DNA from: Sneathiella sp. HT1-7
GTDB taxonomy: Bacteria; Pseudomonadota; Alphaproteobacteria; Sneathiellales; Sneathiellaceae
Assembly: GCF_020731145.1 (NCBI RefSeq)
Contig: NZ_JAJFZN010000005.1
Location: 62,001-126,000 of the forward strand
DNA length: 64,000 bases
Reading direction: 5' to 3'
Below, piece after piece: positions 14,000 through 41,179 of the stretch. The notes beneath the pieces are model-generated. The model had not been told where the DNA came from and ran no database searches. It saw only the letters and a program-made list of their open reading frames with translations. The stretch's first letter is position 1. Every line of letters starts with the position of its first letter. The position numbers and the translations under genes are program-made.

Positions 14000-14129
14000 A
14001 ACCATATCTATTCGAGGAGGGACTGGCCCTGATATGCCGTTTGAGGCAAATCAATACGCCGCGCTTGCAATGTGATACTATGGCGACTTGCCGGTTCTAT
14101 TACGTCAAGTGTAAAGGTGAAATTATAAG

Positions 14130-15074: not shown

Positions 15075-15412
15075 TCAGTGAACAGGACGTTGTTGAGCAA
15101 CTGCAAGGTGTCAGCCCGACAAGACTGCGGGTTTGGATAAAGCGCGGCTGGGTTAGCCCGACTAAAACCGGCACGGTATATTATTTCCGTGAAATTGATG
15201 TTGCCCGCCTGGACCTTATTCGCCAGCTTCAGATGGATATGGCAATCAATAACGAGGCGGTCCCTGTTGTTCTGTCGCTTATCGATCAAATCCACGGGTT
15301 GCGATATGAGCTGAAAACTCTGGCCCGCGCAGTAGAGGCCCAGCATGAGGATGTTCAAAGTGCGATCCTTGATGTCTGCACTTCCATGCGGCCCGAGAAG
15401 GATGATAGTTGA
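15071..15412 (+). CDS. cbpM: CbpM-like chaperone modulator (MerR-HTH fold)
   Basis: A 113-residue protein with an N-terminal MerR-like winged helix ([20 protein letters not shown], then [20 protein letters not shown]) and a helical C-terminus. This matches CbpM, which binds the J domain of CbpA and inhibits it. The ATGA overlap with cbpA and the one-to-one pairing support the call over a free-standing MerR regulator. The C-terminal helix (residues 68-105) would form the J-domain contact. The gene symbol is given by context and family; sequence similarity to E. coli CbpM is expected to be low. Confidence 0.8.
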
Positions 15413-15449
15413 TGCGGGCGCTCCAAATTTGTAGAGACGGGAATTGGCG

Positions 15450-17300
15450 ATGAAGCAGGTACCAGGCTGGACGTGGATAGCTATTGCGGGAATTTTTATT
15501 TTCTCGGTCCTGATGATGAGCCAGGTTGCGCGTGCGCCGGTCGATCCCGCGATATCCTTCAGCGAATTTAAGAAGATGGTATCCGACGGAGACGTTGCCG
15601 AGGTTACCTTGACAGGAGAGAATGCAGCGGTTGTCTTAAAGTCTCCTATAACATTGGGTGGTCAAAAAGTCGCCACAAAGGATTTGCAAACGGTCCTCCC
15701 GAGTAATGGCGATCCGGATCTGTTGCGCCTGTTCGAAGAGCAGGGAGTCATCGTCTGGAATCATCCTGTTGAGACCGGAAGTAATTGGTTTCTCTCTTTG
15801 TTGCCCTGGATTATATTCATTGGAATATATTTATACATCATGCGCCGTATGCAGGGTAATATGATGGATCGGTTTGGAGGACGGAGCAGTAGTGACTTTT
15901 TGACGGGGTCGGCCGCTAAAGAAGAAAAATCTGGCCGGCGTGTGACATTTGATGATGTGGCAGGGCAGGAACAAGCCAAAAAAGAAGTCGCCGAACTGGT
16001 CGAATTTCTAAAACACCCTGAAGGCTTCAAAAAGCTGGGAGCAGAACCACCGCGTGGAGTGTTGTTGGTTGGTCCTCCCGGAACAGGTAAAACATTGCTG
16101 GCGAAAGCACTTGCAGGAGAGGCAGGTGTCAATTTCTTTAACATTTCGGCGTCGGAATTTATCGAAATGTTCGTCGGGGTCGGCGCATCGCGCGTTCGGA
16201 AAATGTTTGACGAAGCCAAAAAACGAGCGCCCAGCATAATCTTTATCGACGAGCTGGATGCTGTCGGGCGGGTGCGTGGCACAGGACTTGGTGGTGGAAA
16301 TGATGAACGGGAACAGACGCTCAACCAGATCCTTTCGGAAATGGATGGGTTTTCGGGTCGGGAAACCGTGATCGTTCTTGCGGCCACGAACCGCCCCGAT
16401 GTCCTGGATCCGGCTTTGCTCCGTCCGGGTCGGTTTGACCGGCATGTGACGCTGGAGCTCCCCGACAAGAAAGCGCGAAAAGCCATCCTGCAGGTTCATA
16501 CGCGCAAAGTACCGCTCGCAAAGGATGTGGACCTTGATCTTGTATCGGCGGGATGCCCGGGATTCTCCGGAGCTGATCTCAAAAATCTTGTGAACGAAGC
16601 GGCGATCGCGGCGGCGCGTGAAGGGGTTGAAGAAGTCAACATGCATCACTTTGATGAAATGCGTGACAGAATCATGATGGGTACCGTTCGTACGCTCGCA
16701 ATTCAGCCGGAGGAGCATCACCGTCTGGCGGTTCATGAGGCAGGTCACACCGCTGTCGCATATTTTTTGCCCCATGCTGACCCGCTCTATAAGGTGACAA
16801 TTATTCCTCGTGGACGTGCATTGGGTGGTACGCATCTCCTGCCAACGGAAGAGCGCCATACTCTGGATGAAGACTATTTACGGGATCGCCTTGCAGTGTC
16901 TCTCGCGGGACGTGGGGCGGAGGATTTTTTCATCGGGAATGTCAGCTCCGGTGCGGATGATGATATCAAGAACGCCACCAAACTTGCCCGTGCGATGGTG
17001 TCGCAATGGGGTATGTCCGATGACGTGGGTCCCATTGATTTACGTCAGAGTGAGGAGCATCCGTTTTTGGGACGGGAAATTGCACAACCGCGCCGATTCA
17101 GTGAGGAGATGTCGAGCCGTGTAGATGATGCTGTCCTCAAATTAATCCGCGAAGCGGAGGCACGAGGTCTCGATATTCTCAAAACGCATAGACCTCAAAT
17201 CGAACTGTTGATTGAAAAACTTGAAAAAGAAGAAACAGTCAACTGGCCGGAAATCGACGCGACCCTCGGCCCAAAAGCTGCAAAGCAGGAAACAGCGTAG
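15450..17300 (+). CDS. ftsH: ATP-dependent zinc metalloprotease FtsH
   Basis: A membrane AAA protease of 616 residues from ATG 15450, which I prefer over the TTG six bases upstream. Features: helix 1 (about 7-24), a periplasmic FtsH_ext domain, helix 2 (about 113-131), Walker A GPPGTGKT (208-215), Walker B IIFIDE (263-268), a second-region-of-homology RPGRFDR, and the zinc site HEAGH (429-433) with the later SGADDDI acid ligand region. It degrades membrane and unfolded cytosolic proteins. Housekeeping ftsH usually sits next to tilS; here it follows cbpA-cbpM, so this may be a second, stress-linked copy. It starts 37 nt after cbpM in the same direction. Confidence 0.94.
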
Positions 17301-17319: not shown

Positions 17320-17333
17320 TTGATCAGGATCAA
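17320..17333. promoter_or_regulatory. FNR/Anr-type box upstream of the sulfide-oxidation pair
   Basis: TTGATCAGGATCAA is a perfect match to the TTGAT-N4-ATCAA consensus of FNR/Anr/FixK-family oxygen-responsive activators. A perfect TATAAT lies at 17353-17358, with the box centre about 26 bp upstream of it. That puts the box near -39 relative to a start about 7 nt after the hexamer, the class II activator position. The downstream gene begins at 17408. The same 14-mer occurs at 38518-38531. Confidence 0.75.
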
Positions 17334-17407
17334 TGACGGGCATGGGGTTTCTTATAATAATTCCAAACTAACGGTACCAAAATCAGTTAGGGGAATGCGA
17401 GAAAACC

Positions 17408-18292
17408 ATGAGCAACTATCCCGTAAATATGAGCATCAAACCTGAGATTAAGGCTTTCTTTGATCAGGATACATTTACCTTCAGCTATGTTGTAAAAGAC
17501 CCGGGGAGCAAGATATGCGCGATAATTGATCCGGTTATGGATATTGATTATGCCGCTGGGAGAATTTCATACGGCGGCGCAGATCGTATATTGGACTATG
17601 TCACGGAAAACGGTTTGACGGTTGATTGGATTATAGAAACTCATGTTCATGCCGATCATATGACGGCCGCGCACTATATCAAGGACAAGATTGGTGGGAA
17701 AATTGGAATTGGCGAGAAAGTCCGGATCGTTCAGGAGACATTCGGTAAAATTTATAATGAAGACAACCGTTTCAAACGGGATGGCTCGCAATTTGATCGG
17801 CTGTTCAAGGACGGTGATACGTATGAGATCGGTTCAATGCCGGCATTTGTTATTCACACCCCGGGGCACACTCCGGCTTGTATGGTCCATGTGATCGGGA
17901 ATGCCACCTTTGTCGGAGATACCCTGTTCATGCCTGATGGCGGTTCTGCAAGAGTTGACTTTCCGGGTGGTGATGCGGCTACACTCTATGACTCCATACA
18001 GAAAGTTCTTTCTTTACCCGATGAGATGCGCCTTTTCATGTGCCATGACTATGGGCCGGATGGCCGGGACTACGAGTGGGAAACGACCGTCGGAGATGAA
18101 AAGCGGGACAATATTCATTTCGGTGAAGGAAAGACAAAAGAAGATTTTGTCAAACTCCGAAGTGAGCGGGACCCAACACTTGGGATGCCTCGTCTGATCC
18201 TGCCATCACTACAGGTCAATATGCGTGCAGGTGAAGTGCCAACGGATCGTGATGGGAACCAGATGTTGAAAATTCCGGTCAACGTGCTTTGA
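17408..18292 (+). CDS. MBL-fold metallo-hydrolase, persulfide dioxygenase (ETHE1/Blh)-like
   Basis: A 294-residue metallo-beta-lactamase-fold protein. The metal site is THVHADHMTAAH (His79, His81, Asp83, His84), with HTPGHTP (His154), GDTLF (Asp171) and CHDYGPDGR. This set matches ETHE1/Blh-type persulfide dioxygenases, which use one Fe(II) to oxidise glutathione persulfide to sulfite. The length and the C-terminal DPTLGMPRLILPSLQVNMRAG segment fit the Blh branch. No rhodanese domain is attached. The next gene, 38 nt away, encodes a DUF442-sulfide:quinone-oxidoreductase fusion, so the pair should convert sulfide to persulfide and then sulfite. An FNR-type box lies upstream. A glyoxalase II function is less likely given this neighbour. 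Confidence 0.88.
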   Translation: MSNYPVNMSIKPEIKAFFDQDTFTFSYVVKDPGSKICAIIDPVMDIDYAAGRISYGGADRILDYVTENGLTVDWIIETHVHADHMTAAHYIKDKIGGKIGIGEKVRIVQETFGKIYNEDNRFKRDGSQFDRLFKDGDTYEIGSMPAFVIHTPGHTPACMVHVIGNATFVGDTLFMPDGGSARVDFPGGDAATLYDSIQKVLSLPDEMRLFMCHDYGPDGRDYEWETTVGDEKRDNIHFGEGKTKEDFVKLRSERDPTLGMPRLILPSLQVNMRAGEVPTDRDGNQMLKIPVNVL

Positions 18293-18330: not shown

Positions 18331-20007
18331 ATGAAGATGGACGTTAAGAGAATTAGCGAAACACTGTCCGTAAGCCCACAGATTCTACCTGATAATATTT
18401 CGGAACTCGCAAAACTGGGCTTTAAGGCGATTATATGTAACCGTCCGGATGGGGAAGGGGCGGATCAGCCGACCTTCGCCGAAATTCAGGAAGCTGCGCA
18501 TAAAGCCGGTATGGAGGCGGCCTATATCCCGATCATCGCAGGTAAGGTACAGGACAGTGATACGACGACTTTTGGCGATACCTTGGCTTCACTTCCACAT
18601 CCCGTGCTGGCTTATTGCCGGACGGGTACCCGTTCTGCGACTCTCTGGTCATTGAATGAAGGGGCGAAGGGCCGCCCGCTTCCAGAAATTCTGCAGACGA
18701 CAAAAACTGCTGGCTATGACATGTCCGGTGTGGTCCGACGTATTGCAAATGGCGGCCGAACGCCCACGGATGTTGCCGATGCGACCCATGATATTGTGAT
18801 TATCGGCGGCGGGGCCGCCGGAATTTCCGTCGCGGCAAGCCTGCTGCACCGTAAAAAAGGTCTTGATATCGCGATTATTGATCCCGCCGATGTGCATTAC
18901 TACCAACCCGGATGGACAATGGTTGGTGGCGGCATATTCGATGCGGAGGATACGGTCCGGACGATGGGGTCTCTCATTCCGGAGGGAGTTCATTGGATCA
19001 AGGCAGCGGTATCGGCGTTTGAGCCGGAAAAGAACGCTGTTATTCTGGATGGTTGCCGCGTCGTTAAATATAACCGGCTTGTCGTTGCCCCAGGCTTAAA
19101 GCTCAATTGGAACGGCATTGAAGGGTTGGTTGAAACGCTTGGCCGGAATGGGGTTACTTCTAACTACCGGTATGACCTCGCACCCTATACTTGGGAGTTG
19201 GTGAACAGCTTGAAGGAAGGACGGGCGCTTTTCACCCAGCCTCCTATGCCGATTAAATGTGCAGGCGCCCCCCAGAAATCGCTCTATCTGTCCGCCGATC
19301 ATTGGTATCGTAACGGCGTCATTAACGACATTGACATTGAATTCTATAATGCAGGCGGCGTTCTGTTCGGCGTGAAGGAATATGTTCCGGCACTTATGGA
19401 ATATGTCAAAAAATACAATGCGGATCTGAAGTTCTCGCATAATCTTGTGCGTATTGATGGGCCAAAGAAGACGGCATGGTTCAATAAGACAGATGCGGAC
19501 GGCAATAGCGAAGTTATTGAAACACGCTTTGATATGATCCATGTGGTACCCCCTCAATGTGCGCCGGATTTCATTCAGGTCAGTCCGCTTGCCGATGCGG
19601 CGGGATGGGTGGATGTTGATCAAACGACGCTCCGGCATAAGACCTATGAGAATATTTGGTCGCTCGGTGATGTCATGAATGCGCCAAATGCAAAAACGGC
19701 CGCTGCGGCTCGTAAGCAGGCGCCGGTCGTCGCGAATAATTTACTAAGTGATATGGGCGTTACTTCTGGCGTTGCACATTATGATGGGTATGGTTCCTGC
19801 CCTCTTACCGTAGAGCGGGGGAAAATTGTACTGGCGGAGTTTGGTTATGGAGGGAAGTTGCTTCCCAGCTTTCCGAGCTGGTTGATAAACGGGCAAAAGC
19901 CGAGCCGGCTTGCTTGGCTAATGAAGGAAAAAATTCTGCCGCCTATTTATTGGCAAGCCATGCTTCGGGGACGTGAATGGCTCGCTCAGCCGGAGATTAC
20001 GGATTAA
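18331..20007 (+). CDS. DUF442 (PTP/rhodanese-like) - sulfide:quinone oxidoreductase fusion
   Basis: A 558-residue fusion. Residues 1-115 form a DUF442/TIGR01244 domain (VKRISETLSVSPQILPDNI) ending in the phosphatase/rhodanese-like loop YCRTGTRS with Cys96. From about 148 onward it is a FAD-dependent sulfide:quinone oxidoreductase: Rossmann motif IVIIGGGAAGISVAASLLHR, the SQR segment IKCAGAPQKSLYLS with a redox Cys, and the second nucleotide region NIWSLGDVMNAPNAKTAAAARKQAP. The SQR part oxidises sulfide and feeds quinone. The DUF442 part probably handles the sulfane sulfur product. In Blh proteins DUF442 is fused to the dioxygenase; here it is on the SQR instead. Only 4 nt separate its stop from the convergent lysE-like gene. 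Met3 is an alternative start. Confidence 0.9.
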   Translation: MKMDVKRISETLSVSPQILPDNISELAKLGFKAIICNRPDGEGADQPTFAEIQEAAHKAGMEAAYIPIIAGKVQDSDTTTFGDTLASLPHPVLAYCRTGTRSATLWSLNEGAKGRPLPEILQTTKTAGYDMSGVVRRIANGGRTPTDVADATHDIVIIGGGAAGISVAASLLHRKKGLDIAIIDPADVHYYQPGWTMVGGGIFDAEDTVRTMGSLIPEGVHWIKAAVSAFEPEKNAVILDGCRVVKYNRLVVAPGLKLNWNGIEGLVETLGRNGVTSNYRYDLAPYTWELVNSLKEGRALFTQPPMPIKCAGAPQKSLYLSADHWYRNGVINDIDIEFYNAGGVLFGVKEYVPALMEYVKKYNADLKFSHNLVRIDGPKKTAWFNKTDADGNSEVIETRFDMIHVVPPQCAPDFIQVSPLADAAGWVDVDQTTLRHKTYENIWSLGDVMNAPNAKTAAAARKQAPVVANNLLSDMGVTSGVAHYDGYGSCPLTVERGKIVLAEFGYGGKLLPSFPSWLINGQKPSRLAWLMKEKILPPIYWQAMLRGREWLAQPEITD

Positions 20008-29836: not shown

Positions 29837-31402
29837 TCAGTCAATATCGGATAACTTGGGAAAGTCAAGAACTTGTCGAAGGCTGTCAAACTGGCTACCG
29901 CTCGCATCAATGCGATGCCATGTCAGGCCGGAAATGCCGCGCTTTACCTGTTGATGCACGACCGCCGGGGTCGCATCGGATGCGTCGCCCTTTCGTGCCT
30001 CCACGCGTGCGGAGATAACTTTTTCATCCGCCTCTAGCCAGATACCGATGAAAGGAACGTCCAGCTCTTCCGCGAGAGTCTCAAATTCCGCCCGTTCACT
30101 CTCCTTGGAGAAGACAGCATCGATAATAACTTTCTGTCCAGACTTCAGGCCGATGCGGGTTTTATGCAGCAATCTGGCATAAACCTTATCGTTCACTTCC
30201 TGAGTATAACTGGATGGGTCCAGCCGTTCTGTCTCGGATACGTTGAAAAGTGCTTTTCGTTCAAGATCCGTGCGGAAATGCAGGAAACCCGGCGCATGTT
30301 CCAGCGTGCCAGCGAGCAATGACGCGAGGGTGGTTTTCCCCGTCCCCGAGTATCCACCAATTGCCACCAGCGCGGGCTTCTTTGGCGATAGATATTGCAT
30401 GGCGGTGGAAAAATATTTCCGTGCCGCCATTCTTTCTTCTTCTGCAGCCTTGCCGGAAAGCTGCCGCGCGTGATCATTGGCGACCATGGCTCTAATCCCT
30501 GCGCGGATCGCAAGGAAGAGCGGCATGGCCTTCATCCCGTAAATATCCTCAAGTGCGCCGGAAAGATAAAGATATCGGTTAAGAAGCTGATTTGCGCTTG
30601 GGCTCATTTGCTGCTGATCAAGATCCATGAGAAGGAACGCGAGATCATAGAGAGTATCAATAGTCGCCAGTTCCTCATCAAACTCCAACGCATCGAAAAG
30701 AACGGGTTTATCGTCGATAAGGACAATATTGCGAAGATGAAGGTCACCATGGCATCGGCGGATAAATCCATGGCGCCCCCGAAATCGCAAGCAAGAGTAG
30801 GCGAAGGATAGATGCTCTTCTGCCAGCTGTTGGAAACGTAATACATCTTCTTTTTGAAAAAGCTTTGGCGCGCCCTGAAAGCTATCTCTTAGTTCGTCAA
30901 TTAATAGCTGAATACGCTTAGGGCCATCTGAGGCTCTCTCGATTGGAGCCTTTTGATGATAGTCGAAAACTGACTTGGCCAGCTTCTCGATCAGTGCCTT
31001 TTCAGTAACTCTGCTGTGCGGAAGCTGGTCAAGCATCATCTCCTGCTCAAAGCGTTTCATCTTTACCGCCCATTCAACAGTTTGGCCGGCTCCGTCAAAT
31101 GTCAGGCTTCCATCAGATTCCTTTGTGATGGCCGTTAGGCCCAGATAAATCTCCGGCGCACCGGGCTGATTGATCGATATTTCCCGCTTACAAAAATGTC
31201 GCCGCTTTGCAAGTGTTGAAAAATCCATATAGGGAAATTTGACCGCCTTCTTTATTTTGTAGGCGAAATCACCCGCAAGAAAAATCATCGCGCCGTGGGT
31301 TTCATGCACGTCAACCATTTCAATCTCAGTTGGATAATTTGCGGGGTTCTTTAGAAAGGAGATTATCTCCTGTTGTGGTATGTCCGGATATTCTTGAGCC
31401 AT
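29837..31402 (-). CDS. APH-like / P-loop kinase two-domain ATPase
   Basis: A 521-residue cytoplasmic protein with two nucleotide-binding halves (COG2187 + COG0645). The N-terminal aminoglycoside-phosphotransferase-like half carries the Brenner motif HGDLHLRN (218-225) and FDALEFDEE. The C-terminal half is an AAA_33/gluconate-kinase-like P-loop domain with GGYSGTGKT (349-357). The substrate is unknown; the pattern suggests a small-molecule or protein kinase. I start it at ATG 31402 because this overlaps the sulP stop as TGATG. It is the last gene of the phaC-fabI-pta-ack-sulP run, and so may act on a product of that pathway or be a stress kinase of the low-oxygen regulon. Confidence 0.87.
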   Translation of the reverse strand: MAQEYPDIPQQEIISFLKNPANYPTEIEMVDVHETHGAMIFLAGDFAYKIKKAVKFPYMDFSTLAKRRHFCKREISINQPGAPEIYLGLTAITKESDGSLTFDGAGQTVEWAVKMKRFEQEMMLDQLPHSRVTEKALIEKLAKSVFDYHQKAPIERASDGPKRIQLLIDELRDSFQGAPKLFQKEDVLRFQQLAEEHLSFAYSCLRFRGRHGFIRRCHGDLHLRNIVLIDDKPVLFDALEFDEELATIDTLYDLAFLLMDLDQQQMSPSANQLLNRYLYLSGALEDIYGMKAMPLFLAIRAGIRAMVANDHARQLSGKAAEEERMAARKYFSTAMQYLSPKKPALVAIGGYSGTGKTTLASLLAGTLEHAPGFLHFRTDLERKALFNVSETERLDPSSYTQEVNDKVYARLLHKTRIGLKSGQKVIIDAVFSKESERAEFETLAEELDVPFIGIWLEADEKVISARVEARKGDASDATPAVVHQQVKRGISGLTWHRIDASGSQFDSLRQVLDFPKLSDID

Positions 31403-33141
31403 CAGGCGCAATCAAGGTCTTTGAAGGCATCGTGGGTGCTGAGGTAAACTTTACCGGGCTTGAGATGCTCAAGGAAATGAGTTCGTTCCAATCGATCCAT
31501 CACCGGCCCCTTCACTTCGGCCAGATGAAAAGTGACACCCGCATTTTTCAAGTCTGAAATGAGAGTCTCCAAAGACTCGAGCGCGCTGCCGTCGATCGCG
31601 TTGATGGCACTGCATATAAAGACAACATGTTTTACTTCTGGCTGGTCGACAATCGCTGAAAGGACATAATTTTCAAAATATCGGGTGTTGGCGAAGAACA
31701 GGCTTTCATCCACCCTCATCGCCAGAACATGCGCGCAGGTCCGGACCGTGTGACGCTTGATGTTGCGAAAATGTTCGCTGCTTCCAACGCGGCCAACGAT
31801 GGCGATATGCGGTTTACTGCTGCGCCAGAGGAAGAGGATAAGCGAAACCACAATTCCCGCGATAATACCCAATTCGATACCTTCCGCCATGACAACGGCG
31901 AAGGTAACAAGCCAGGCGGCGGCGTCACTCTTGCTATAGGTCCAGTTTACTTTAAGGGCCTTTAGATCGACTAGTCCCAAGACCGCAATGATTATAATGG
32001 CCGCGAGTACGGCCTGCGGTAGGTAATAAAAAAGTGGTGTGAAGAAAAGCACGGAAAGTGCAATTAATGCGGCGGTTATAATGGCCGCTAACTGTGTATT
32101 CGCACCCGCATCAAAATTTACCACAGAACGACTAAAGCCGCCGCAAACCGGACTGCCACCAGTAAAAGCGGCACCGATATTGGCGACGCCAAGACCAACA
32201 AGCTCCTGATTGACATCTATCTTCTGGCGGCGCTTGCTGGCCAGAACCCGCGCGATGGCAACGCTCTCAACAAAACTGACAAGGGCGATCAGGGCCGCCG
32301 AAACCGCCAATTCACGCCAAAGGGTAAAATCGAAACTCGGCACGGTGAGCGGCGGTAGGCCTGCGGGGATACTTCCCACAACGACAAGCCCGTTAGTTTC
32401 ATTCCACAGCATTTTCGCCGACAAAAGGGTCATCAACAGAACTACAAACATAGGCCCTGCTTTTACAAGCGTCTTGGCAATTTTTTCCGATAATCCAAAG
32501 CGAATGAGTAGGGGGCTAAGATACTGCCGCAAACTATACAAAAGTATGAGGCTTATCCCACTGATAATCACGGTTAAACCGTTAATGTCGGAAACATGAT
32601 TGAAGATATAACTAAGCGATTGGTCTATGCGGCTACCGCGTGGAATTTCGATGCCCAATAGATGTTTTAGCTGGCTAAAGGCAATGACAATTGCCGCCGC
32701 GCTGGTAAAGCCAGACATTACAGGGTGGCTCAGGAAATTGGCGAGAAAACCAAGTTTTGCAATTCCCATGATCAGGAGAAACAAACCGATTAGGGCGGAA
32801 AGAACTAGCGCAGCATAGATATAATCAGCCGACCCCGGAATGGCAATGGTACCAAGTGCTGCCGCGACCATAAGTGAAGCAACGGCGACGGGACCAACAG
32901 CGAGAGTGCGGCTACTTCCGAAAAATGCGTAAAGAATGGGCGGCAGGATGCTTGCGTACAAACCTACTTCCGGCGGAAGTCCGGCAAGGATAGAATAAGC
33001 CATCGCCTGCGGAACCAGCAGGATAGCGGTGATAATTCCCGCAGTGAGGTCTCCCGGCAGGTCGTTGGATGAATAAGATTTAAGCCATCCAACAGCAGGT
33101 ATAACTTTCTCAATTCCCTGAGTGGCCATTTGAACCCTCAC
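31402..33141 (-). CDS. SulP-family anion transporter with STAS domain
   Basis: A 579-residue SLC26/SulP transporter. The N-terminal membrane domain opens with LPGDLTAGIITAILLVPQAMAY, the sulfate-transporter signature, followed by SHPVMSGFTSAAAIVI and, near 340, GSPVCGGFSRSVVNFDAGANTQ. A C-terminal STAS domain (about 450-560) carries HVVFICSAINAIDGSALESLE. SulP proteins carry sulfate, bicarbonate or carboxylates such as succinate. Position between ackA and the kinase gene, with 4-nt and 1-nt overlaps, suggests that this one may move the carboxylate product of the acyl-phosphate pathway. That is inference. Confidence 0.92.
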   Translation of the reverse strand: MRVQMATQGIEKVIPAVGWLKSYSSNDLPGDLTAGIITAILLVPQAMAYSILAGLPPEVGLYASILPPILYAFFGSSRTLAVGPVAVASLMVAAALGTIAIPGSADYIYAALVLSALIGLFLLIMGIAKLGFLANFLSHPVMSGFTSAAAIVIAFSQLKHLLGIEIPRGSRIDQSLSYIFNHVSDINGLTVIISGISLILLYSLRQYLSPLLIRFGLSEKIAKTLVKAGPMFVVLLMTLLSAKMLWNETNGLVVVGSIPAGLPPLTVPSFDFTLWRELAVSAALIALVSFVESVAIARVLASKRRQKIDVNQELVGLGVANIGAAFTGGSPVCGGFSRSVVNFDAGANTQLAAIITAALIALSVLFFTPLFYYLPQAVLAAIIIIAVLGLVDLKALKVNWTYSKSDAAAWLVTFAVVMAEGIELGIIAGIVVSLILFLWRSSKPHIAIVGRVGSSEHFRNIKRHTVRTCAHVLAMRVDESLFFANTRYFENYVLSAIVDQPEVKHVVFICSAINAIDGSALESLETLISDLKNAGVTFHLAEVKGPVMDRLERTHFLEHLKPGKVYLSTHDAFKDLDCA

Positions 33142-34331
33142 TCATTGCCGTGTTGGAGGATATTAAAAGTCGCATCGGCAATCACACTTTCTTCATCGGT
33201 GGGAATAACTGAGACAACAATTTCAGAGTTTGCACCACTGATTATATGAGCGTTTGACTGATTTGCTTCACTGTCGAGGTTAACCCCGAGCCATTCCAGA
33301 TTTGCACAAATTTGTGCACGAATGGGTGCGGAGTTCTCGCCTATGCCGGCCGTAAAAACGATGCCTTCCAGCCCTTTAAGCGGGACCATCAGGGACGCAA
33401 TCTCGCAGGCCGCTCGATAACAGAAAAGATCAATGGCTTCCTTGGCGTGGGCATGATCGCTTTCAAGTAGTACCTGCATATTATTGCTTATCCCGGAAAC
33501 GCCAAGCAGACCGGAATCATTGTATAAGAGACGCTGGATTTCCTCCTCATTCATGCCACGCTCCTGCATGAAATAAAGAACGACGCCCGGATCAAGGGTG
33601 CCACATCTAGTTCCCATCACCAACCCGTCAAGTGCCGTAAAGCCCATACTTGTGGCAACACTTTTCCGGTTTTGCATGGCGCAAAGGCTTGCGCCGTTTC
33701 CAAGATGTGCAACAACAATACGCCCCTCCGCTTTTTCTCCGAGGGTTTTGGGCAAAATACTTGAAATATACTGATAGGAAAGGCCATGGAAGCCGTATCG
33801 GATGATGCCCTCATCAGTAAGGTGACGGGGAAGTGCAAAAAGCTCTGCCAGATGTAACTGAGTTCGGTGAAATGCCGTATCGAAACAAGCGACCTGCAAG
33901 AGATCTCTGTTGCGTTTGATAAGTGCGTCTATCGGAGCCAGATTGTGGGGCTGATGGAGCGGCGCAAGCGACACAAATTGTCTTAGTTCTTGCAGGATTT
34001 CGATACTGATTTTAACTGGCGTGGCATACTCGCGTCCGCCATGCACAACACGGTGTCCAATGGCAACGACGTTATTATCCTGGTCATGAACATCCAACCA
34101 ATCGAGTAATAGACTGGTTAGGTGTTGATGGTCGCTTGTGACTTCTATCGCAGCAAGCGGCCCTTTATCTATATTGCGGCCGGAAATATCTACCGCATTA
34201 AATTCCGGGGCGCGGCCTATTCCTTTTATTTTGCCACGGATCAACGGGCTGCTCGGTGTCTGCGCAGCTGGGTACAAGGCGAATTTGATACTCGACGATC
34301 CGGCGTTCAGAACTAATATTGTTTCTGTCAT
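33138..34331 (-). CDS. ackA: Acetate/propionate-family kinase
   Basis: A 397-residue member of the ASKHA fold. It opens with ETILVLNAGSSSIKFALY, and has GHRVVHGG, ACFDTAFHR, RYGFHGLSYQYI, HLGNGASLCAM and TAGIGENSAPIR, all acetate-kinase signatures, at normal length. It makes ATP from acyl phosphate. It overlaps both the upstream MaoC-Pta gene and the downstream sulP gene by 4 nt (ATGA in each case). Specificity between acetyl-, propionyl- and butyryl-phosphate cannot be told from these motifs. Confidence 0.94.
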   Translation of the reverse strand: MTETILVLNAGSSSIKFALYPAAQTPSSPLIRGKIKGIGRAPEFNAVDISGRNIDKGPLAAIEVTSDHQHLTSLLLDWLDVHDQDNNVVAIGHRVVHGGREYATPVKISIEILQELRQFVSLAPLHQPHNLAPIDALIKRNRDLLQVACFDTAFHRTQLHLAELFALPRHLTDEGIIRYGFHGLSYQYISSILPKTLGEKAEGRIVVAHLGNGASLCAMQNRKSVATSMGFTALDGLVMGTRCGTLDPGVVLYFMQERGMNEEEIQRLLYNDSGLLGVSGISNNMQVLLESDHAHAKEAIDLFCYRAACEIASLMVPLKGLEGIVFTAGIGENSAPIRAQICANLEWLGVNLDSEANQSNAHIISGANSEIVVSVIPTDEESVIADATFNILQHGNE

Positions 34332-35722
34332 GGCGTTTGTTGCTGGACATAATTTGCGAAAAGGAGAGCAAGGGCGGAAGAGGCGAGGCGGGACAATGTG
34401 CCATCCGCTCGGCTTGTCAGAATAATGGGGACACGAGCGCCCAGGACAATTCCGGCAGATTCCGCGCCGGCAAGATAAATAAGCTGCTTGGCGATCATAT
34501 TGCCGGCCTCAAGATCGGGTGCAATCAGGATATCCGCCTCTCCTGCAACGGCAGAGGTAATGCCCTTTGCTTCCGCCGCTGTTTTGGAAATGGCATTGTC
34601 AAAGGCGAGTGGCCCATCAAGCAGGCCACCGGTTATCTGTCCCCTGTCGGCCATTTTACAGAGGGCCGCGGCATCAATGGTTGAGGCAATCTTTGGATAA
34701 ACTGTTTCCACGGCTGATAAAACAGCGACTTTCGGCACATCAATGCCAAGCGCGTGGGCAAGGTCGATAGAGTTTTGAATAATATCCCGTTTATCGTCCA
34801 GATCAGGATAGATATTGATTGCCGCATCGGTAATGAAAAGGGGCTTTGGATAATGCGGTACATCAAGCACGAAAACATGGCTGATGCGCCGTTCAGTTGT
34901 CAGGCCGTTTGCGCGATCAACAACCGCCTCCATAATTTCGTCTGTATGCAGTTTGCCCTTCATCAAAGCGGAGACAGTGCCTTGTCGGACCATTTCGACT
35001 GCTTTTTGGGCAGCTGCGTGACTGTGGGGCACATCAATAATGTCAATAGCGTTGATGTCGTAATTCGCTTCCTCTGCGGCGGCCTGTATTTTTTTCTTCG
35101 GCCCGATCAATACAGGGACAATTAGGTCATTTTTTGCGGCCTCCAGTGCACCGATCAGGGATATCGTATCGCAAGGGTGAACAACAGCCGTACGGATAGG
35201 GTCCAAGTCTCGAGTTGCGGCAATCAATCGCTGATACTGGGCGCCCGTCTCGTGTAAATGTACTTCGGGCAGGAGAACCCGGGGGCGACGGACCTTTTTG
35301 GTCGGGGCTATAACGGTCGCGTCGCCATCGATAACGATCTCGCCATTTTGATTGATACATTCACAGGCGAGTGTAACGCGGTAGCCTTTATCGTGTTTTT
35401 CTTTCACTGTAACCCGAACGGTGATCATGTCACCCAGTCCGACAGGTTTATGAAAATTAAGAGACTGATTTAGATAGATTGTGCCCGGACCAGGCAATTC
35501 AGTCCCCAGAACGGCAGAGATCAGGGATCCACCCCACATGCCGTGGGCAATCACCTTGTGAAACATATCTGACTTTGCATACTCTACATCTAAATGGGCA
35601 GGGTTGACGTCTCCGGACATAACCGCAAAAAGCTCAATATCCTTCGTGCTAAGCTTCCGTGCCAAGTCTGCGCTGTCGCCAACCTCTATTTCGTCAAATG
35701 TCTTGTTTTCGATATATTGCAT
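34328..35722 (-). CDS. Bifunctional MaoC-like enoyl-CoA hydratase / phosphate acyltransferase
   Basis: A 464-residue fusion. Residues 1-140 are a MaoC hotdog domain: FDEIEVGDSADLARKLS, then MSGDVNPAHLDVEYA, where the Asp/His pair is the hydratase dyad. Residues 150-464 are a PTA_PTB phosphotransacylase domain containing SLIGALEAAKNDLIVPVLIG, LMKGKLHTDEIM and VAGEADILIAPDLEAGN. The hydratase would form (R)-3-hydroxyacyl-CoA, a PHA precursor. The acyltransferase would convert acyl-CoA to acyl phosphate for the kinase encoded next. It overlaps ackA by 4 nt and follows fabI by 12 nt. Confidence 0.92.
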   Translation of the reverse strand: MQYIENKTFDEIEVGDSADLARKLSTKDIELFAVMSGDVNPAHLDVEYAKSDMFHKVIAHGMWGGSLISAVLGTELPGPGTIYLNQSLNFHKPVGLGDMITVRVTVKEKHDKGYRVTLACECINQNGEIVIDGDATVIAPTKKVRRPRVLLPEVHLHETGAQYQRLIAATRDLDPIRTAVVHPCDTISLIGALEAAKNDLIVPVLIGPKKKIQAAAEEANYDINAIDIIDVPHSHAAAQKAVEMVRQGTVSALMKGKLHTDEIMEAVVDRANGLTTERRISHVFVLDVPHYPKPLFITDAAINIYPDLDDKRDIIQNSIDLAHALGIDVPKVAVLSAVETVYPKIASTIDAAALCKMADRGQITGGLLDGPLAFDNAISKTAAEAKGITSAVAGEADILIAPDLEAGNMIAKQLIYLAGAESAGIVLGARVPIILTSRADGTLSRLASSALALLFANYVQQQTP

Positions 35723-35734
35723 GTTCCGCCCTGT

Positions 35735-36511
35735 TTACGACATTACGTGATAGCCCGCGTCGACATATGAAATGTTGCCAGTAACATTCTTTGCAGCATC
35801 GCTGACTAGGCCAACAGCCATGTTACCGACATCTTCAATAGTTACCAGACGATGTTGCGGCGCTCGTGCGCACGCCTCGTCGATCAATTCATCAAAATGC
35901 GCTATGCCGGAGGCCGCACGCGTCTTCAACGGGCCGGGTGACAGAGCATTTACGCGAATGCCTTTGGGGCCGAGTTCCGCCGCCAGATAATGCATGGAGG
36001 CTTCAAGCGCTGCCTTGACCGGACCCATAATATTGTAGTGGTCAACAACCTTCTCTGCGCCATAATAGCTTACGGTTAGCAAGCTCCCGCCATCTTTCAT
36101 TAGCGGTTCAGCGTGTCGTGCCAGCCGGATAAAGGAATGACAGGAGATGTCCATCGCTTGGGCAAATCCAGCGCGAGAGCAGTCTATGACGCGTCCTTGT
36201 AGATCCTCTGCGGGGCAGTAGGCGATGGAATGCAATAAAAAATCAAGGCCACCCCATTCCTTTGTAATTCTTTCAAATACGGCCTCCATCTGCGAATCGT
36301 CCTCGACATCTAGTGGCAGCAGCATCTCGGCATTAACGCTAGTTGCGACCTTCTCAACATAAGGTCGCGCCTTTTCATTCAGATAGGTGAGCGCGAGTCG
36401 TCCTCCGGAGCCATGAAAGGCGCGCGCACAGCCAGCGGCAATTGAATGATCATTGGCAATGCCGACGACCAACCCCCGTTTGCCACTGATTAAATTCGGA
36501 ATCATATGCAA
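35735..36511 (-). CDS. fabI: Enoyl-[ACP] reductase, FabI type (short-chain dehydrogenase)
   Basis: A 258-residue SDR protein with the divergent FabI glycine pattern (GLVVGIANDHSIAAGCARAF), the SIAY segment, and the FabI catalytic Tyr159-x6-Lys166 in YNIMGPVK. It reduces trans-2-enoyl thioesters with NADH. It lies between phaC and the MaoC-Pta gene, not in a fatty-acid operon, so it is probably a specialised copy. One possibility is an enoyl-CoA reductase serving as an electron sink. Tyr150 (SYYGAEK) matches the second conserved FabI tyrosine region. Confidence 0.9.
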   Translation of the reverse strand: MHMIPNLISGKRGLVVGIANDHSIAAGCARAFHGSGGRLALTYLNEKARPYVEKVATSVNAEMLLPLDVEDDSQMEAVFERITKEWGGLDFLLHSIAYCPAEDLQGRVIDCSRAGFAQAMDISCHSFIRLARHAEPLMKDGGSLLTVSYYGAEKVVDHYNIMGPVKAALEASMHYLAAELGPKGIRVNALSPGPLKTRAASGIAHFDELIDEACARAPQHRLVTIEDVGNMAVGLVSDAAKNVTGNISYVDAGYHVMS

Positions 36512-36517
36512 ATCATC

Positions 36518-38440
36518 CTATTCCTGAAAAACGTATGTACCGGGAGCATTTCCCAAAATTTCATAGCCTTGGTCGGTCAATCCCATAGCTGGCGGGGAGG
36601 TCTGCTGACCTGAACGGGCTTTTAGCCAAGCACTAAACTCCGGCCACCAAGATCCTTCCTGCTCCGTCGTGTCTTCATACCATTGCTCTGGATCCTTATA
36701 GCGATCATCCAATTTATGGAGGGCAAGACGATAGTGGCGCCGTGGATGTCCCGGCTCAGAGACAATCCCTGCGTTATGGCCGCCATTGGTTAGCAGGAAT
36801 GTAATTTCGGTGTCGGACAGGATATGGAACTTATATACGGATTGCCACGGTGCAACGTGATCCCATTCGGTTCCGACCGCAAATATGGGCACAGTTATGT
36901 CTGAAACAGCGACTGGTCGCCCTTCGACGAGAAAGCGGCCTTCGGCAAGATCGTTGTTCAGGAATAAATGCCGTAGATATTCGGAATGCATACGGTATGG
37001 CATGCGCGTGGCATCCGCATTCCAGGTCATTAGATCATTGAGGTCTGGCTCTTCGCCCATCAGGTAATTTCGGACTGAGCGGGACCATATAAGATCGTTG
37101 GAACGTAGTAATTGGAATGCACCCGCCATCTGTTTTGTATCCAGAAACCCTTGTTCCCACATCATGTCTTCCAGGAAGGTGACCTGACTTTCATTGATGA
37201 ACAGCATCAACTCCCCAGCCTCGGTAAAGTCGGCTTGGGCTGCGAAAAGCGAGAGTGATTTAAGTCGATCATCATTATCTCGACACATGGCTGCTGCGGC
37301 AATCGTTAGCAAGGTGCCGCCAAGGCAATAACCAACGCCATGCACTTTCTCATTCGGTATGATATTTTCTATAACATCAAGTGCTGCCATCACCCCGAGG
37401 CGTCGATAATCATCCATCGATAGGTCGCGATCATCAGGGTCCGGGTTTTTCCAAGAAACCATGAAAACTGTATACCCCTGCTCTGTTAGGAATTTAACGA
37501 GAGAGTTTTCGGGAGAAAGATCAAGGATATAGTATTTCATGATCCAAGCAGGCACGATGAGGATCGGTTCCGGATGAACCTTTTCCGTAGCGGGCTCATA
37601 TTGGATTAGCTCTATCAGCCGATTTCGGTAGATTACTTTTCCGGGCGTAACCGCAATATTTCTGCCAACTTGATATTTCTGATTATCCGTCCGTTTTCGG
37701 CCGCTGACGGCTGCCTCAAAATCTTTGACGAAATTCTGATAGCCGCGAACAAGGTTTTGTCCGCTTTCATCGACGGTTTTTTGAAGAACTTCCGGATTTG
37801 TCAAAAAATAATTGGACGGCGAGAAAACATCAAGAACTTGCCGAGTTGCAAACTCCACGACATTTTCATGTTGTTGGGTAACTCCGCGCACCCCGGTCGT
37901 AGCGTTATGACACCATTGCTGTGTCATCAAAAAGGATTGATGAAGTAGGTTATATGGGAATGTTTGCCAAGCCGGATCGCTAAAGCGTTTATCTTGCGGC
38001 AAGGGCTCAATGCATCGTGGCGAAGCATCATCGTCATTTTTATTCTGCGCACACTGGGTCGCGTAGTTGGCAAGACGCAGGCTCTTCTTCACAGCCTTCT
38101 CAACAAGCTGAAGCCGCTTGCCCGGCGAGGTAGCCAGATGAACGACCCAATCGGCATAGGCTCCAGCAAGGGCGCTGGGAGAAAGTCCGCCTGTAAAACG
38201 AGCGGCCATTGCATGTGTGGAACGGTCCAGTATTTCCTGCATTGATGTTGAGAAATAGGAGTCGCGTTCAAATGGCGAATGCCCCATATCAGGGTTTCCC
38301 ATGATTTTCTGATAGGGATATGCAATAGCAGAAGGTGGCGTCTTACCCTTGGTTGTTGTCACAGCGGGTAAATTTGTTTTGGTGGCGACCATTTTTGCGG
38401 GTCTCTTTCTCGTTTTGTGGGAAGCTTGTTTTTGTGCCAT
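36518..38440 (-). CDS. phaC: Poly(R)-hydroxyalkanoic acid synthase, class I type
   Basis: A PHA synthase of 640 residues from ATG 38440. The catalytic triad is visible: Cys372 in the lipase-like box GYCLGG, Asp527 in GTEWDHVAPW, and His555 in TNGGHNAGIV. The PhaC N-terminal domain (about 70-240) precedes the alpha/beta-hydrolase domain. It polymerises (R)-3-hydroxyacyl-CoA on granules. The frame opens at ATG 38464, eight codons earlier, but no ribosome site precedes that codon; TGGAAAT precedes 38440. The start choice also leaves room for a leader after the predicted promoter. It is the first gene of the leftward six-gene run and has a perfect FNR-type box about 80-90 bp upstream. Confidence 0.9.
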   Translation of the reverse strand: MAQKQASHKTRKRPAKMVATKTNLPAVTTTKGKTPPSAIAYPYQKIMGNPDMGHSPFERDSYFSTSMQEILDRSTHAMAARFTGGLSPSALAGAYADWVVHLATSPGKRLQLVEKAVKKSLRLANYATQCAQNKNDDDASPRCIEPLPQDKRFSDPAWQTFPYNLLHQSFLMTQQWCHNATTGVRGVTQQHENVVEFATRQVLDVFSPSNYFLTNPEVLQKTVDESGQNLVRGYQNFVKDFEAAVSGRKRTDNQKYQVGRNIAVTPGKVIYRNRLIELIQYEPATEKVHPEPILIVPAWIMKYYILDLSPENSLVKFLTEQGYTVFMVSWKNPDPDDRDLSMDDYRRLGVMAALDVIENIIPNEKVHGVGYCLGGTLLTIAAAAMCRDNDDRLKSLSLFAAQADFTEAGELMLFINESQVTFLEDMMWEQGFLDTKQMAGAFQLLRSNDLIWSRSVRNYLMGEEPDLNDLMTWNADATRMPYRMHSEYLRHLFLNNDLAEGRFLVEGRPVAVSDITVPIFAVGTEWDHVAPWQSVYKFHILSDTEITFLLTNGGHNAGIVSEPGHPRRHYRLALHKLDDRYKDPEQWYEDTTEQEGSWWPEFSAWLKARSGQQTSPPAMGLTDQGYEILGNAPGTYVFQE

Positions 38441-38517
38441 GATATTTCCATTCACGCCCATCATTGGGGAAGCCGGGGAAACTTAGCTATACTATCAGTG
38501 ATTTGTGCGCCGCAGCA

Positions 38518-38531
38518 TTGATCAGGATCAA
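38518..38531. promoter_or_regulatory. FNR/Anr-type box upstream of phaC
   Basis: TTGATCAGGATCAA is identical over all 14 bases to the box at 17320. On the minus strand a TAGTAT hexamer at 38494-38489 begins about 30 bp from the box centre. This places the box close to -42 for transcription toward phaC. It lies in the 294-bp divergent region shared with the Lon-family gene, whose own start is about 200 bp away. Confidence 0.72.
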
Positions 38532-38734: not shown

Positions 38735-41179
38735 ATGGTGGATACTAAGGCACTGCCCGCTTCACAATTATGCCGCAGATATGATCTTGAAGCACTTGGG
38801 TTTAAGGATACAACCGAATTGGAGGATTTGCGCGAGCCGTTAGGTCAGGATCGTGCGGTAGAGGCCATTCGCTTTGGTATTGGTGTGCGTCATCATGGCT
38901 TTAATTTGTTTGCATTTGGCCCTTCAGGATCTGGTAAAACAGAAATTATCCGTCGTTATCTTGAACCCGAAGCTGCGGCAAAGCCAGTCCCGGATGACTG
39001 GTGTTATATAAATAATTTTAAGGTACCGGATCACCCAAAATTGTTACGCTTGCCCGCAGGGCGCGCGAATGATCTCGCGCAGCAGATGGAGGCACTTACC
39101 GAAGAAGTTCGCGCCGTTATTTCCGCCGCCTATGAAAGTGAGGATTACCGCACACGGCTTGATGTTATTGTGGAGCAGTTCAAGCTAAAGCAGGAAGAAG
39201 CATTCGAGGATCTGCAGAAGAAGGCAGACGAGAAAAACGTCTCCATTGTCCGGACGCCGATGGGTCTCGCTTTGGCACCATCGCAAGATGGAAAGGTGCT
39301 AAATCCGGAGGCTTTTTCCAAGCTGTCCTCAGAGAGCCAAGAGAAATTCAAGAAAGACATCGGCGAACTGGAAGGTGATTTGCAGGCTGTTGTTCGTATG
39401 CTTCCGGAAGTGGAGCGCGAGCAGCGCCGGGAAATCACTAAGCTTAACCGGGAGGTCACAAGCTTTGCGGTCGATCACCTCATAGATGAAATTCGGGAAA
39501 AGTGGCGGGATTGTACGGCAGTGCTCGTCTTTTTTGATGAAGTTCAGGACTATATCATCAACCATAGTGATGTGTTCCGTTTAACCAAGGACGAGGCGGT
39601 GGAGACAGTTCCGGCCCGTATCGCCGCGGATTTTGTGATGCAGCAGGAACGTGTCATCGGGAACTGCCAGATTAATGTTCTGATCAGCCATGACGCCAAT
39701 GGCGGTGCGCCGGTTGTCTATGAAGATAATCCTACGGTTGAGAACCTGATCGGTCGGATAGAGCATCGCTCGGAATTTGGCTCCTTGGTGACAGATTTTC
39801 GGTTGATTAAACCCGGTGCGCTTCATCGGGCGAATGGCGGTTATCTAATCCTTGATGCCCGCCGATTGGTATTTCAACCCTATGCCTGGGAAACTCTCAA
39901 GCGCGAACTCCGCAGCCAGGAAGTAAGAATAGAATCGCTCACCCAAATGATGTCACTTGGCAGTATGGTAAGCCTGCAACCAGAAACGATGCCATTAGAT
40001 ATTAAGGTGATCCTGATAGGTGACCCGCTTCTTTACTATCTACTCAGCCAGAATGATCCGGATTTTCAAAACCTTTTCAAGGTGCCGGTTGATTTTGACG
40101 ATCGTCTACCGGTGACGGATGACGCCGTTGCGTTATATGCGAAATTTATTGCGACAGAAGCGAGAAAAAAACGGCTAATGCCGCTGGAGCGGGGTGCTGT
40201 TGAAAAAGTAATGGAAAGGATGACCCGCCTTACTTCAGATACGGAAAGGTTGTCTAGTCATACCCGCTCTTTGTCCGACTTAATGTCAGAGGCGGATTAC
40301 TGGGCTGCGTCCCGGAAGGCATCACATATCGCCGCAGAGGATGTGACGCACGCGATAAAAGCCCATATTCATCGATCGGACCGGATGCGTGAACGCACTC
40401 AGGAACAGTTCCAGCGCGGTACAATGATGCTCGACACCTCGGGTGCCAAGGTCGGCCAGATCAATGGCTTATCTGTAATGCAGTTAGGTGATTTTGCCTT
40501 TGGTCGGCCGAGCAGGATTACAGCAAGGGTGCATCTCGGGCGTGGTCGCGTCATCGATATTGAACGTGAAGTGGAACTTGGCGGCCCGCTTCATTCAAAA
40601 GGCGTGCTGATCCTCTCTAATTTTCTGGCGGCACGTTATACCGAAAATAAGCCGTTGTCCTTGAATGCGAGCCTGGTGTTTGAGCAATCTTACGGCGGCG
40701 TAGATGGAGATAGTGCGTCTTCGACAGAGCTTTATGCACTTTTATCCGCGCTGGCAGATGTTCCAATAAAGCAGTCCCTGGCTGTTACGGGGTCGGTAAA
40801 TCAATTCGGTGAAGTGCAAGCTATCGGGGGCGTAAATGAAAAGATTGAGGGATTCTTCGATCTTTGTAACTTCCGCGGACTTAGTGGTACTCAGGGTGTG
40901 CTTATTCCGGAGTCAAACGTCAAACATCTTATGTTGAAGGATGAGGTTGTGGAAGCGGCAGAAAAAGGCAAGTTCCATATTTTTTCAGTTGCCAGCATTG
41001 ACGAGGGGATCGAGATTTTGACAGGCATGCCTGCCGGAGAGCTGGATGCGGCTGGAAATTATCCTAAAGATACGATCAATGGCCGGGTTAAATTACGGCT
41101 TGAGGCTTTTGCTGAATCAGCACGGCGATATGTAAAGTCTGGCGGCGAAGAGAAAATGTCGGAGGTAAATGATGACTGA
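38735..41179 (+). CDS. Lon-family ATP-dependent protease (AAA_32/LonB-like, stand-alone)
   Basis: An 814-residue protein. An N-terminal AAA_32-type ATPase region has Walker A GPSGSGKT (62-69) and a long helical insertion (about 110-270). A C-terminal Lon proteolytic domain has the Ser-Lys dyad: Ser660 in DGDSAS and Lys703 in VNEKIEGF. There is no Lon N-terminal substrate domain, so this is not housekeeping Lon. It probably degrades a specific set of cytosolic proteins. It overlaps the USP-like gene by 11 nt. It is divergent from phaC and shares the intergenic region containing the FNR-type boxes. Confidence 0.9.
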   Translation: MVDTKALPASQLCRRYDLEALGFKDTTELEDLREPLGQDRAVEAIRFGIGVRHHGFNLFAFGPSGSGKTEIIRRYLEPEAAAKPVPDDWCYINNFKVPDHPKLLRLPAGRANDLAQQMEALTEEVRAVISAAYESEDYRTRLDVIVEQFKLKQEEAFEDLQKKADEKNVSIVRTPMGLALAPSQDGKVLNPEAFSKLSSESQEKFKKDIGELEGDLQAVVRMLPEVEREQRREITKLNREVTSFAVDHLIDEIREKWRDCTAVLVFFDEVQDYIINHSDVFRLTKDEAVETVPARIAADFVMQQERVIGNCQINVLISHDANGGAPVVYEDNPTVENLIGRIEHRSEFGSLVTDFRLIKPGALHRANGGYLILDARRLVFQPYAWETLKRELRSQEVRIESLTQMMSLGSMVSLQPETMPLDIKVILIGDPLLYYLLSQNDPDFQNLFKVPVDFDDRLPVTDDAVALYAKFIATEARKKRLMPLERGAVEKVMERMTRLTSDTERLSSHTRSLSDLMSEADYWAASRKASHIAAEDVTHAIKAHIHRSDRMRERTQEQFQRGTMMLDTSGAKVGQINGLSVMQLGDFAFGRPSRITARVHLGRGRVIDIEREVELGGPLHSKGVLILSNFLAARYTENKPLSLNASLVFEQSYGGVDGDSASSTELYALLSALADVPIKQSLAVTGSVNQFGEVQAIGGVNEKIEGFFDLCNFRGLSGTQGVLIPESNVKHLMLKDEVVEAAEKGKFHIFSVASIDEGIEILTGMPAGELDAAGNYPKDTINGRVKLRLEAFAESARRYVKSGGEEKMSEVNDD

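Follow-up and report, generated by a model that had tools for sequence, protein, structure and literature searches.

Two identical 14-nt palindromes in the window, by which we mean the whole 64-kb stretch of Sneathiella DNA analysed here (G000:C7:62001-126000), are in our view likely to be sites for an FNR-type sensor, which would drive an operon for persulfide dioxygenase (PDO) and sulfide:quinone oxidoreductase (SQR), as well as a phaC operon, at low oxygen, the latter with a second input from PhaR. From sequence we infer binding, whether it activates or represses, the part played by PhaR and the physiological role; the sites themselves recur in related species, at a constant distance from the gene. 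The preliminary description of this DNA had envisaged a low-oxygen regulon joining sulfide and PHA/acyl-phosphate operons, and within Sneathiella this idea is supported, with the phaC-pta arm being far broader (29 of 51 clusters) than PDO-SQR (5 of 30 operons, one of them hand-added).

The sulfide-operon box, TTGATCAGGATCAA, occupies 17320..17333 on the + strand, and the phaC box, which reads TTGATCCTGATCAA on this strand, occupies 38518..38531 on the - strand. Both had been described as identical, perfect FNR-type 14-mers, and the coordinates are right, each being an exact match with 0 mismatches. A pattern scan of the 64-kb window for TTGAT-N4-ATCAA returns only these two sites at 0 mismatches, and five more at one mismatch. 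The number of perfect sites expected in 64 kb ranges from 0.05 (order-0) to 0.24 (order-4 Markov), the latter figure being an overestimate as the training stretches were partly picked for boxes. From the centre of box 1 it is 81.5 nt to the PDO start codon, and from that of box 2 it is 60.5 nt to the phaC start codon. The two share the spacer CAGG, which has a third genomic occurrence at C5:14982; since the spacer varies among phaC orthologues, it is not essential, and the identity between the two boxes is probably incidental. We also considered CAGG (at PDO, phaC and the sll1863-like gene, versus TTAG at ccoN, narK and ubiT) as the mark of a stress sub-regulon, and rejected this in view of the spacer changes seen among the phaC boxes of the genus.

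Both boxes are followed by the -10-like hexamers that had been claimed for them: TATAAT at 17353-17358 (+ strand), the likely -10 element of the sulfide operon, and TAGTAT at 38494-38489 on the - strand, the likely -10 element of phaC. The former sits at the same offset in G001, and as TAAAAT 2 nt further in G015; the latter stands at +24 after the box in four of the five promoters examined (TAGTAT in G000, TATATT in G001, TAGAAT in G002 and TATAAT in G013), with a weaker hexamer at +23 in G007. With a transcription start assumed 7 nt past the -10, the 23 nt from box end to -10 at phaC predict a box centre at about -42.5, and the 19 nt at the sulfide promoter a centre at about -38.5, or about -41.5 if AATAAT, 3 nt past TATAAT, is the element used. 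The proposal that both boxes are centred near -41 thus agrees well with the start predicted for phaC, and only roughly with that predicted for the sulfide operon, where the box-to-(-10) distance is 3-4 nt less.

The sign of regulation at the sulfide operon has to be weighed on this geometry. Could its box be a repressor site, at which the FNR-type regulator (FnrL), bound at about -38, would cover the -35 region and shut PDO-SQR under anoxia, when the oxygen co-substrate is gone, whilst phaC is activated? The perfect TATAAT and the box lying 3-4 nt closer than at phaC would both suit such a reading, as would the biochemistry: PDO consumes O2, and an oxygen-requiring dioxygenase is an odd target for an activator that works in anaerobiosis. 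However, neither promoter contains a -35-like hexamer 16-18 nt before the -10, the sulfide promoter offering just 1-2 of 6 matches to TTGACA, as for an activator-dependent promoter; ccoN, which also encodes an oxygen-using enzyme, has the same kind of box; and AATAAT, 3 nt further, would restore class II spacing in G000 and G001, and G015 has TAAAAT at +22. We consider repression unlikely, and favour the inferred activation of the sulfide operon, on account of the box at ccoN and the lack of a -35-like hexamer at 16-18 nt in either promoter.

Behind box 1, PDO (17408..18292, + strand) is a stand-alone protein of the MBL fold that matches the dioxygenase half of the Blh model NF040641 (385 of 625 bits) and Pfam Lactamase_B; its matches in the PDB include the ETHE1 persulfide dioxygenase. 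The following gene (18331..20007, + strand) encodes a sulfurtransferase/BLH-phosphatase-like domain (residues 4-137, TIGR01244 over cut-off; PF04273) fused to SQR, whose residues 153-548 match mitochondrial SQOR (E 2.4e-96), the closest solved relative of the SQR part. The BLH-phosphatase/sulfurtransferase domain is fused to the dioxygenase in Blh, whereas it is fused to SQR here and the dioxygenase is separate. Near-full-length relatives of this fusion occur in 24 of 385 genomes of the class, plus 12 more genomes of the phylum sample.

The box ahead of these genes has a narrow distribution. It is perfect, and 79.5-81.5 nt before the start, in the three closest PDO orthologues with upstream DNA (G000, G001 and G015; 81-100% identity), whose spacers are CAGG, CAGG and CAGA and whose half-sites are unchanged. 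The other 26 PDO upstream regions, which include those of the common class of 54-60% identity and of the closest PDOs from other genera, contain no perfect box and a single one-mismatch box, at 65.5 nt in L049 (PDO 59%); one further PDO locus, L046, came without upstream DNA. Those closest PDOs beyond Sneathiella, at 61-68% identity (G039, G052 and G059), have no box at ≤1 mismatch. A survey of PDO loci (52 given, 47 with at least 120 nt upstream) included 30 PDO-SQR operons, five of which have a box at ≤1 mismatch: three perfect, all in Sneathiella, and two with one mismatch, that of L181 lying at 78 nt. One of these operons (L118) was added by hand with its box known, so that the unselected figure is 4 of 29 (two perfect, one of them in the window). 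Other spacings give 0-1 of 30, one operon having a perfect N8 site, and the remaining 25 of 30 operons have no box at ≤1 mismatch. On these comparisons the sulfide-operon box is lineage-specific, kept in three Sneathiella species only. A Sphingomonadaceae MAG (L215) again has PDO-SQR adjoining phaC-pta-ackA, and the region upstream of its PDO has no box at ≤2 mismatches.

Some sulfide operons elsewhere are under BigR/SqrR control, and no BigR-type repressor gene is found beside the PDO-SQR genes of the window, whose neighbours are FtsH-like, MerR_2, DnaJ, LysE-like and MATE-like genes. The second PDO of the genome (C4:521107) does adjoin a BigR-like gene (92 of 155 bits), and a scan of that region finds no box at ≤2 mismatches. 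This second locus (L122, G000:C4:520700-525100) also holds a TsuA-like partial match, and a phasin gene preceded by two PhaR-type sites lies a few kb away.

The stretch at 14130-17300, immediately before the sulfide operon, carries DnaJ/CbpA-like, MerR_2 (CbpM-like) and FtsH-like genes, an arrangement also present in G001 and G015. A one-mismatch box, TTGAGGCAAATCAA, precedes them at 14041..14054 (+ strand), its centre 82.5 nt before the GTG start. The G001 box, TTGACGCAAATCAA, likewise has one mismatch and lies 82.5 nt from the start, and a TANNAT hexamer follows at +22 in both genomes (TACTAT in G000, TAAGAT in G001); in G015 the dnaJ upstream region has no box at ≤1 mismatch. These dnaJ-ftsH genes may be part of the same regulon, and a dnaJ operon is also listed as a FixK2 target in B. 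diazoefficiens (PMC9104804).

Box 2 heads a longer series of genes on the - strand. The first is phaC (36518..38464), a PHA synthase that is class I-like (PF07167, PF12551; TIGR01838 at 569.7 bits, below the cut-off of 622.65), followed by a fabI-type enoyl-ACP reductase (35735..36511; NF005717 over cut-off), a fused MaoC-type hydratase/phosphate acyltransferase, Pta (34328..35722; NF006045 over cut-off; PF01515, PF01575), and an acetate/propionate kinase, AckA (33138..34331; TIGR00016 over cut-off). A SulP-family anion permease (31402..33141; TIGR00815 over cut-off) probably belongs to the same operon, of which an AAA_33 P-loop kinase-like gene (29837..31411; PF13671) is probably the last; for both, gene order is maintained in G001, G002, G013 and G015. 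On the other side of the box, a divergent gene (38735..41179, + strand) encodes a LonB/LonC-like protease (PF13654, PF20436), starting 210 nt from the centre of box 2. Together with the FtsH-like gene, two quality-control proteases border the two boxed operons.

Within the genus, the phaC box is present in all seven orthologues with upstream DNA (five perfect, two with one mismatch), in six of them at 58.5-60.5 nt; in the seventh, G002, the start codon was estimated differently. The spacers of the perfect boxes are CCTG (twice), CTTG, CGTG and CATG, the half-sites being kept while the spacer drifts. Upstream regions of the phaC1 type have no box at ≤1 mismatch in any of 18 cases. Among further loci, L078 (phaC 57%), which reappears as L224 in the cluster survey described below, carries at 140.5 nt a site with one mismatch, and L079 offers only ~115 nt of DNA upstream of phaC. 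In G015 no phaC match improves on E 6e-16, and a perfect box still lies ~270 nt before maoC-pta; in this genome the sulfide and maoC-pta operons are direct convergent neighbours.

Does box 2 serve the divergent protease instead of phaC, or along with it? The intergenic region is common to G000, G002 and G013, and 210 nt separate the box centre from the protease start. Against this, it is the distance of ~60 nt to phaC that is conserved, and the -10 lies on the phaC side. Moreover, the protease is not adjacent in the other four of the seven boxed Sneathiella loci (it is ~11 kb off in G001 and is not seen in G017 and G019, and the G007 contig is short), and of the 66 named loci just two, L202 and L264, were found to have it. 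A role at the protease is therefore rather improbable, and phaC is taken as the target in what follows.

Beyond the genus, 66 named loci encode MaoC-Pta, 51 of them with a phaC of >45% identity and 15 without, and this set spans Alpha- and Betaproteobacteria. A box at ≤1 mismatch lies upstream of phaC in 29 of the 51 clusters, from many genera (11 perfect), and is lacking at that threshold in the other 22. "Upstream" here takes in 250 nt ahead of the estimated start and continues as far as the first codon in the alignment (428 nt on average), and so includes some N-terminal coding sequence, and three of the clusters (L201, L202 and L264) are G001, G002 and G013, which are also in the genus count. 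Each of ten other spacings gives 0-2, and shuffled sequence 0.3 on average per set. Before other genes of these loci, boxes at ≤1 mismatch number 3 of 66 for maoC-pta, 0 of 48 for ackA, 1 of 35 for fabI and 2 of 9 for dnaJ-like genes. Considering that 29 of 51 clusters are boxed, versus 0-2 for other spacings, the PHA/acyl-phosphate operon is, on this comparison, a widespread predicted FNR/FixK-type target.

The count of boxes in the genome as a whole (3.83 Mb, 11 contigs) is less telling. There are 17 perfect N4 boxes, versus a mean of 11.4 for ten other spacings between N0 and N10 (114 sites in total; Poisson P 0.07). This count alone is weak evidence, barely above the spacing controls (1.5 times), and was dropped as proof on its own in view of so mild an excess. 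Markov expectations of orders 1-4 run from 8.5 to 14.6 per genome, figures that overstate chance as the stretches used were partly box-selected; a permuted half-site comparison over those stretches is biased likewise and was not used. Placement is another matter. Of the 17 perfect boxes 11 lie outside long ORFs, compared with 3 among 46 controls of other spacing (Fisher P 5e-6), these controls being part of the 48 non-N4 sites listed out of 114. ORFs were defined by length only, with the phaC box, inside a 79-codon ORF, treated as non-coding; without such short ORFs, the figures are 10 of 17 and 2 of 46. Whether boxes might be equally common in coding DNA was a question raised at the outset, and relative to the spacing controls the perfect ones concentrate outside it; their placement is strong evidence of something beyond chance. 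That the two boxes are chance palindromes in intergenic DNA, devoid of function, would fit a genome-wide count just 1.5 times that of other spacings. However, this is contradicted by conservation at a fixed distance with a changing spacer, and by the 29 of 51 clusters that are boxed, where other spacings reach 0-2 of 51 and shuffled sets average 0.3, such that we find it barely credible.

The remaining boxes help to define what else the regulator may control. Six of the 17 perfect boxes are in coding sequence, with one of these 46 nt ahead of the following gene; for two of the non-coding boxes (L027 and L029), no long ORF begins within 250 nt. The genes that have a perfect box centred 26-94 nt upstream are ccoN, a narK fusion, ubiT, a DksA-like gene, an sll1863-like gene, PDO and phaC, and together they make up a low-oxygen set. 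The ubiT box precedes ubiT-ubiU-ubiV, and the narK-fusion box has an ftrB-like gene on its opposite side. The boxed sll1863-family gene is followed by one for an N-ATPase-like beta subunit (732 of 752 bits); it is present in 4 of 60 genomes searched, and all four keep the box (one perfect, three with one mismatch), the relatives' boxes having the same spacer and a change in a half-site. At this locus (L030, G000:C5:10953-17088), the two genes come directly after thymidine/AMP phosphorylase-, PRPP synthetase- and beta-CASP nuclease-like genes. The same 14-mer is also present in one paper (PMC4689864).

The phaC promoter has a further candidate element, which the preliminary description did not mention. 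A PhaR-box core, TGCGGCGCA, at 38506..38514 (- strand) fits YGCRNYGCR and begins at +4 after the FNR-type box. YGCRNYGCR is the core of the S. meliloti PhaR motif (PMC12542648), with which the B. diazoefficiens motif agrees (PMC10888616). The core is at exactly +4 in all seven Sneathiella phaC promoters, at that position after none of the other 16 boxes of the genome itself, and not at that position in the phaC-less operon of G015 either. Ten of the 29 box-bearing clusters have it at +3..+5 (eight at +4), three of the ten being Sneathiella and one more belonging to the same family; the other 19 have no core in this register. Only four other occurrences lie within 100 nt either side of the box in the 29 clusters, and 0.06 would be expected by chance in the +3..+5 register if the loci, though related, are taken as independent. 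The core is common by itself (16 palindromic sites, or 32 strand hits, in the 64-kb window), so it is the fixed register that makes the composite stand out. The 21-mer around the phaC core has 2 of 21 mismatches to the S. meliloti consensus, which has AT-rich arms, and the two PhaR-type sites upstream of one phasin gene have one each. PhaR itself is encoded (PF07879, E 6.8e-31), as are phasins.

As the site lies between the FNR-type box and the -10, PhaR bound at 38506-38514 should block polymerase, and phaC probably responds to oxygen and polymer jointly. More broadly, we lean, if with modest confidence, towards the view that a fixed-register operator, TTGATN4ATCAA-NNN-YGCRNYGCR, has formed or been kept in the phaC-pta-ackA promoters of several alphaproteobacterial lineages, where transcription would need both low oxygen and storage polymer, with PhaR at the -35 contact region, and that some Sneathiella also put the oxygen switch on PDO-SQR and, with one mismatch, on dnaJ-ftsH.

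Which protein would read these boxes? An FNR homologue had been called for, and the genome has one with a Cys cluster and an E-SR helix beside hemN/ccoNO. This 265-aa protein (G000:C8:37230-38024) is encoded directly before hemN and ccoNO, and has an N-terminal cluster of Cys40, Cys43 and Cys51, a central Cys134 and the recognition helix ETVSR (E-x-x-S-R). Its best solved relatives are FixK2, which lacks Fe-S cysteines, and an FNR-type regulator, their helices aligning as ETVSR and ETISR. As its scores are below the NCBIfam cut-offs of the named models (FixK 147 of 300 bits, FnrL 139 of 300, Fnr 126 of 228), we classify it as an FNR-type relative outside the named FNR, FnrL and FixK equivalogs. 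Of 24 same-genus genomes, 22 encode a homologue at E ≤ 1e-30; the completeness of the remaining two is 66% and 56%. The placement of FNR beside hemN/ccoNO has been noted in many Alphaproteobacteria (PMC2908626).

The genome encodes four CRP/FNR-family members well over the Pfam cut-off and one marginal match, and the three other regulators, with the marginal one, could read similar sites. One of these lies 24 kb upstream of the window (L040, G000:C7:37972-42401), has no N-terminal Cys cluster and is separated by one gene from a nosR-like gene, which places a denitrification gene on the contig of the window. If the boxes were read mainly by another family member such as this one (C7:38002-38220, which we take to be an NnrR/DNR-like sensor), the signal would be nitric oxide or denitrification rather than oxygen. 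The number of family members leaves room for this, as does the C7 protein itself, with its helix HTVSR, its lack of an N-terminal Cys cluster, its place next but one to the nosR-like gene and its distance of 41 kb from box 1. On the other hand, the E of the E-SR motif, generally taken to recognise the G in TTGAT, is found in the C8 protein and absent from the C7 protein, and a box of the same class lies before ccoN, a textbook FNR/FixK target, beside the C8 gene. We regard a different reader as quite improbable, and prefer the C8 protein.

With the C8 regulator as FnrL, the following mechanism can be proposed. When oxygen drops, FnrL would keep its iron-sulfur cluster, and its dimer would bind TTGAT-N4-ATCAA some 40 nt upstream of the transcription start and recruit RNA polymerase. 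From the box at 17320, it would drive PDO and the sulfurtransferase-SQR fusion; at the oxic-anoxic boundary, electrons from sulfide would pass to quinone, with some oxygen left for the dioxygenase and the cbb3 oxidase. From the box at 38518, it would drive phaC-fabI-maoC/pta-ackA(-sulP-kinase), an operon that may store or ferment acyl-CoA under limited respiration. PhaR, free when there is no polymer, would hold the phaC promoter down until granules draw it away.

Much of this resembles known systems. The FNR/FnrL-FixK regulon of Alphaproteobacteria likewise features the same box, ccoNO/hemN by the regulator gene and FNR-type cysteines; to this, Sneathiella adds PDO-SQR and perhaps the sll1863/N-ATPase-like locus. 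The word "sulfide" is absent from the main text available of two FNR/FixK regulon papers (PMC2908626, PMC4999443), and our searches of the open PMC literature gave no account of SQR or persulfide dioxygenase being controlled by FNR, FixK or Anr. BigR/SqrR sulfide operons likewise use PDO/Blh and SQR for sulfide oxidation, whereas the PDO-SQR of the window has an FNR-type box and no BigR-like neighbour, the BigR-like gene being beside the second PDO. A BigR-controlled Blh-type dioxygenase has been reported as necessary for hypoxic growth (PMC5823870).

Precedents for the phaC arm are closer. phaC2 of B. diazoefficiens (bll6073) is likewise a phaC paralogue under an FNR-family activator and PhaR, activated by FixK2, as validated by in vitro transcription (PMC9104804), and repressed by PhaR (PMC10888616). 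The motif listed for the divergent gene is the reverse complement of the same box (PMC9104804). There, however, the activator is FixK2 and the box, TTGATGCAGCTCAA, is imperfect, and the text available describes no fused FNR-PhaR site (PMC9104804, PMC10888616). Pseudomonas extremaustralis and Herbaspirillum seropedicae likewise place phaC under a low-oxygen activator (Anr/Fnr), although no pta-ackA operon or PhaR composite is mentioned in the accessible part of the source (PMC7204398). Control of phbC by FnrN/FixK has been predicted in some Rhizobiales (PMC4999443). Control of phaC by FNR/FixK and control by PhaR are thus each already known, and the composite phaC operator is the stronger new point, a fixed FNR-PhaR composite site being one for which we found no report in the open PMC literature.

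The overlap between FixK2 and PhaR responses reported in Bradyrhizobium has been discussed as an effect of PhaR on fixK2 or on oxygen in the cell (PMC10888616, PMC6201568); perhaps the composite operator might give a DNA-level reason for it. If our reading is true, a single sensor would tie together oxygen limitation, sulfide oxidation and carbon storage, and phaC promoters would be a natural two-input gate, responding to oxygen and polymer in a fixed geometry.
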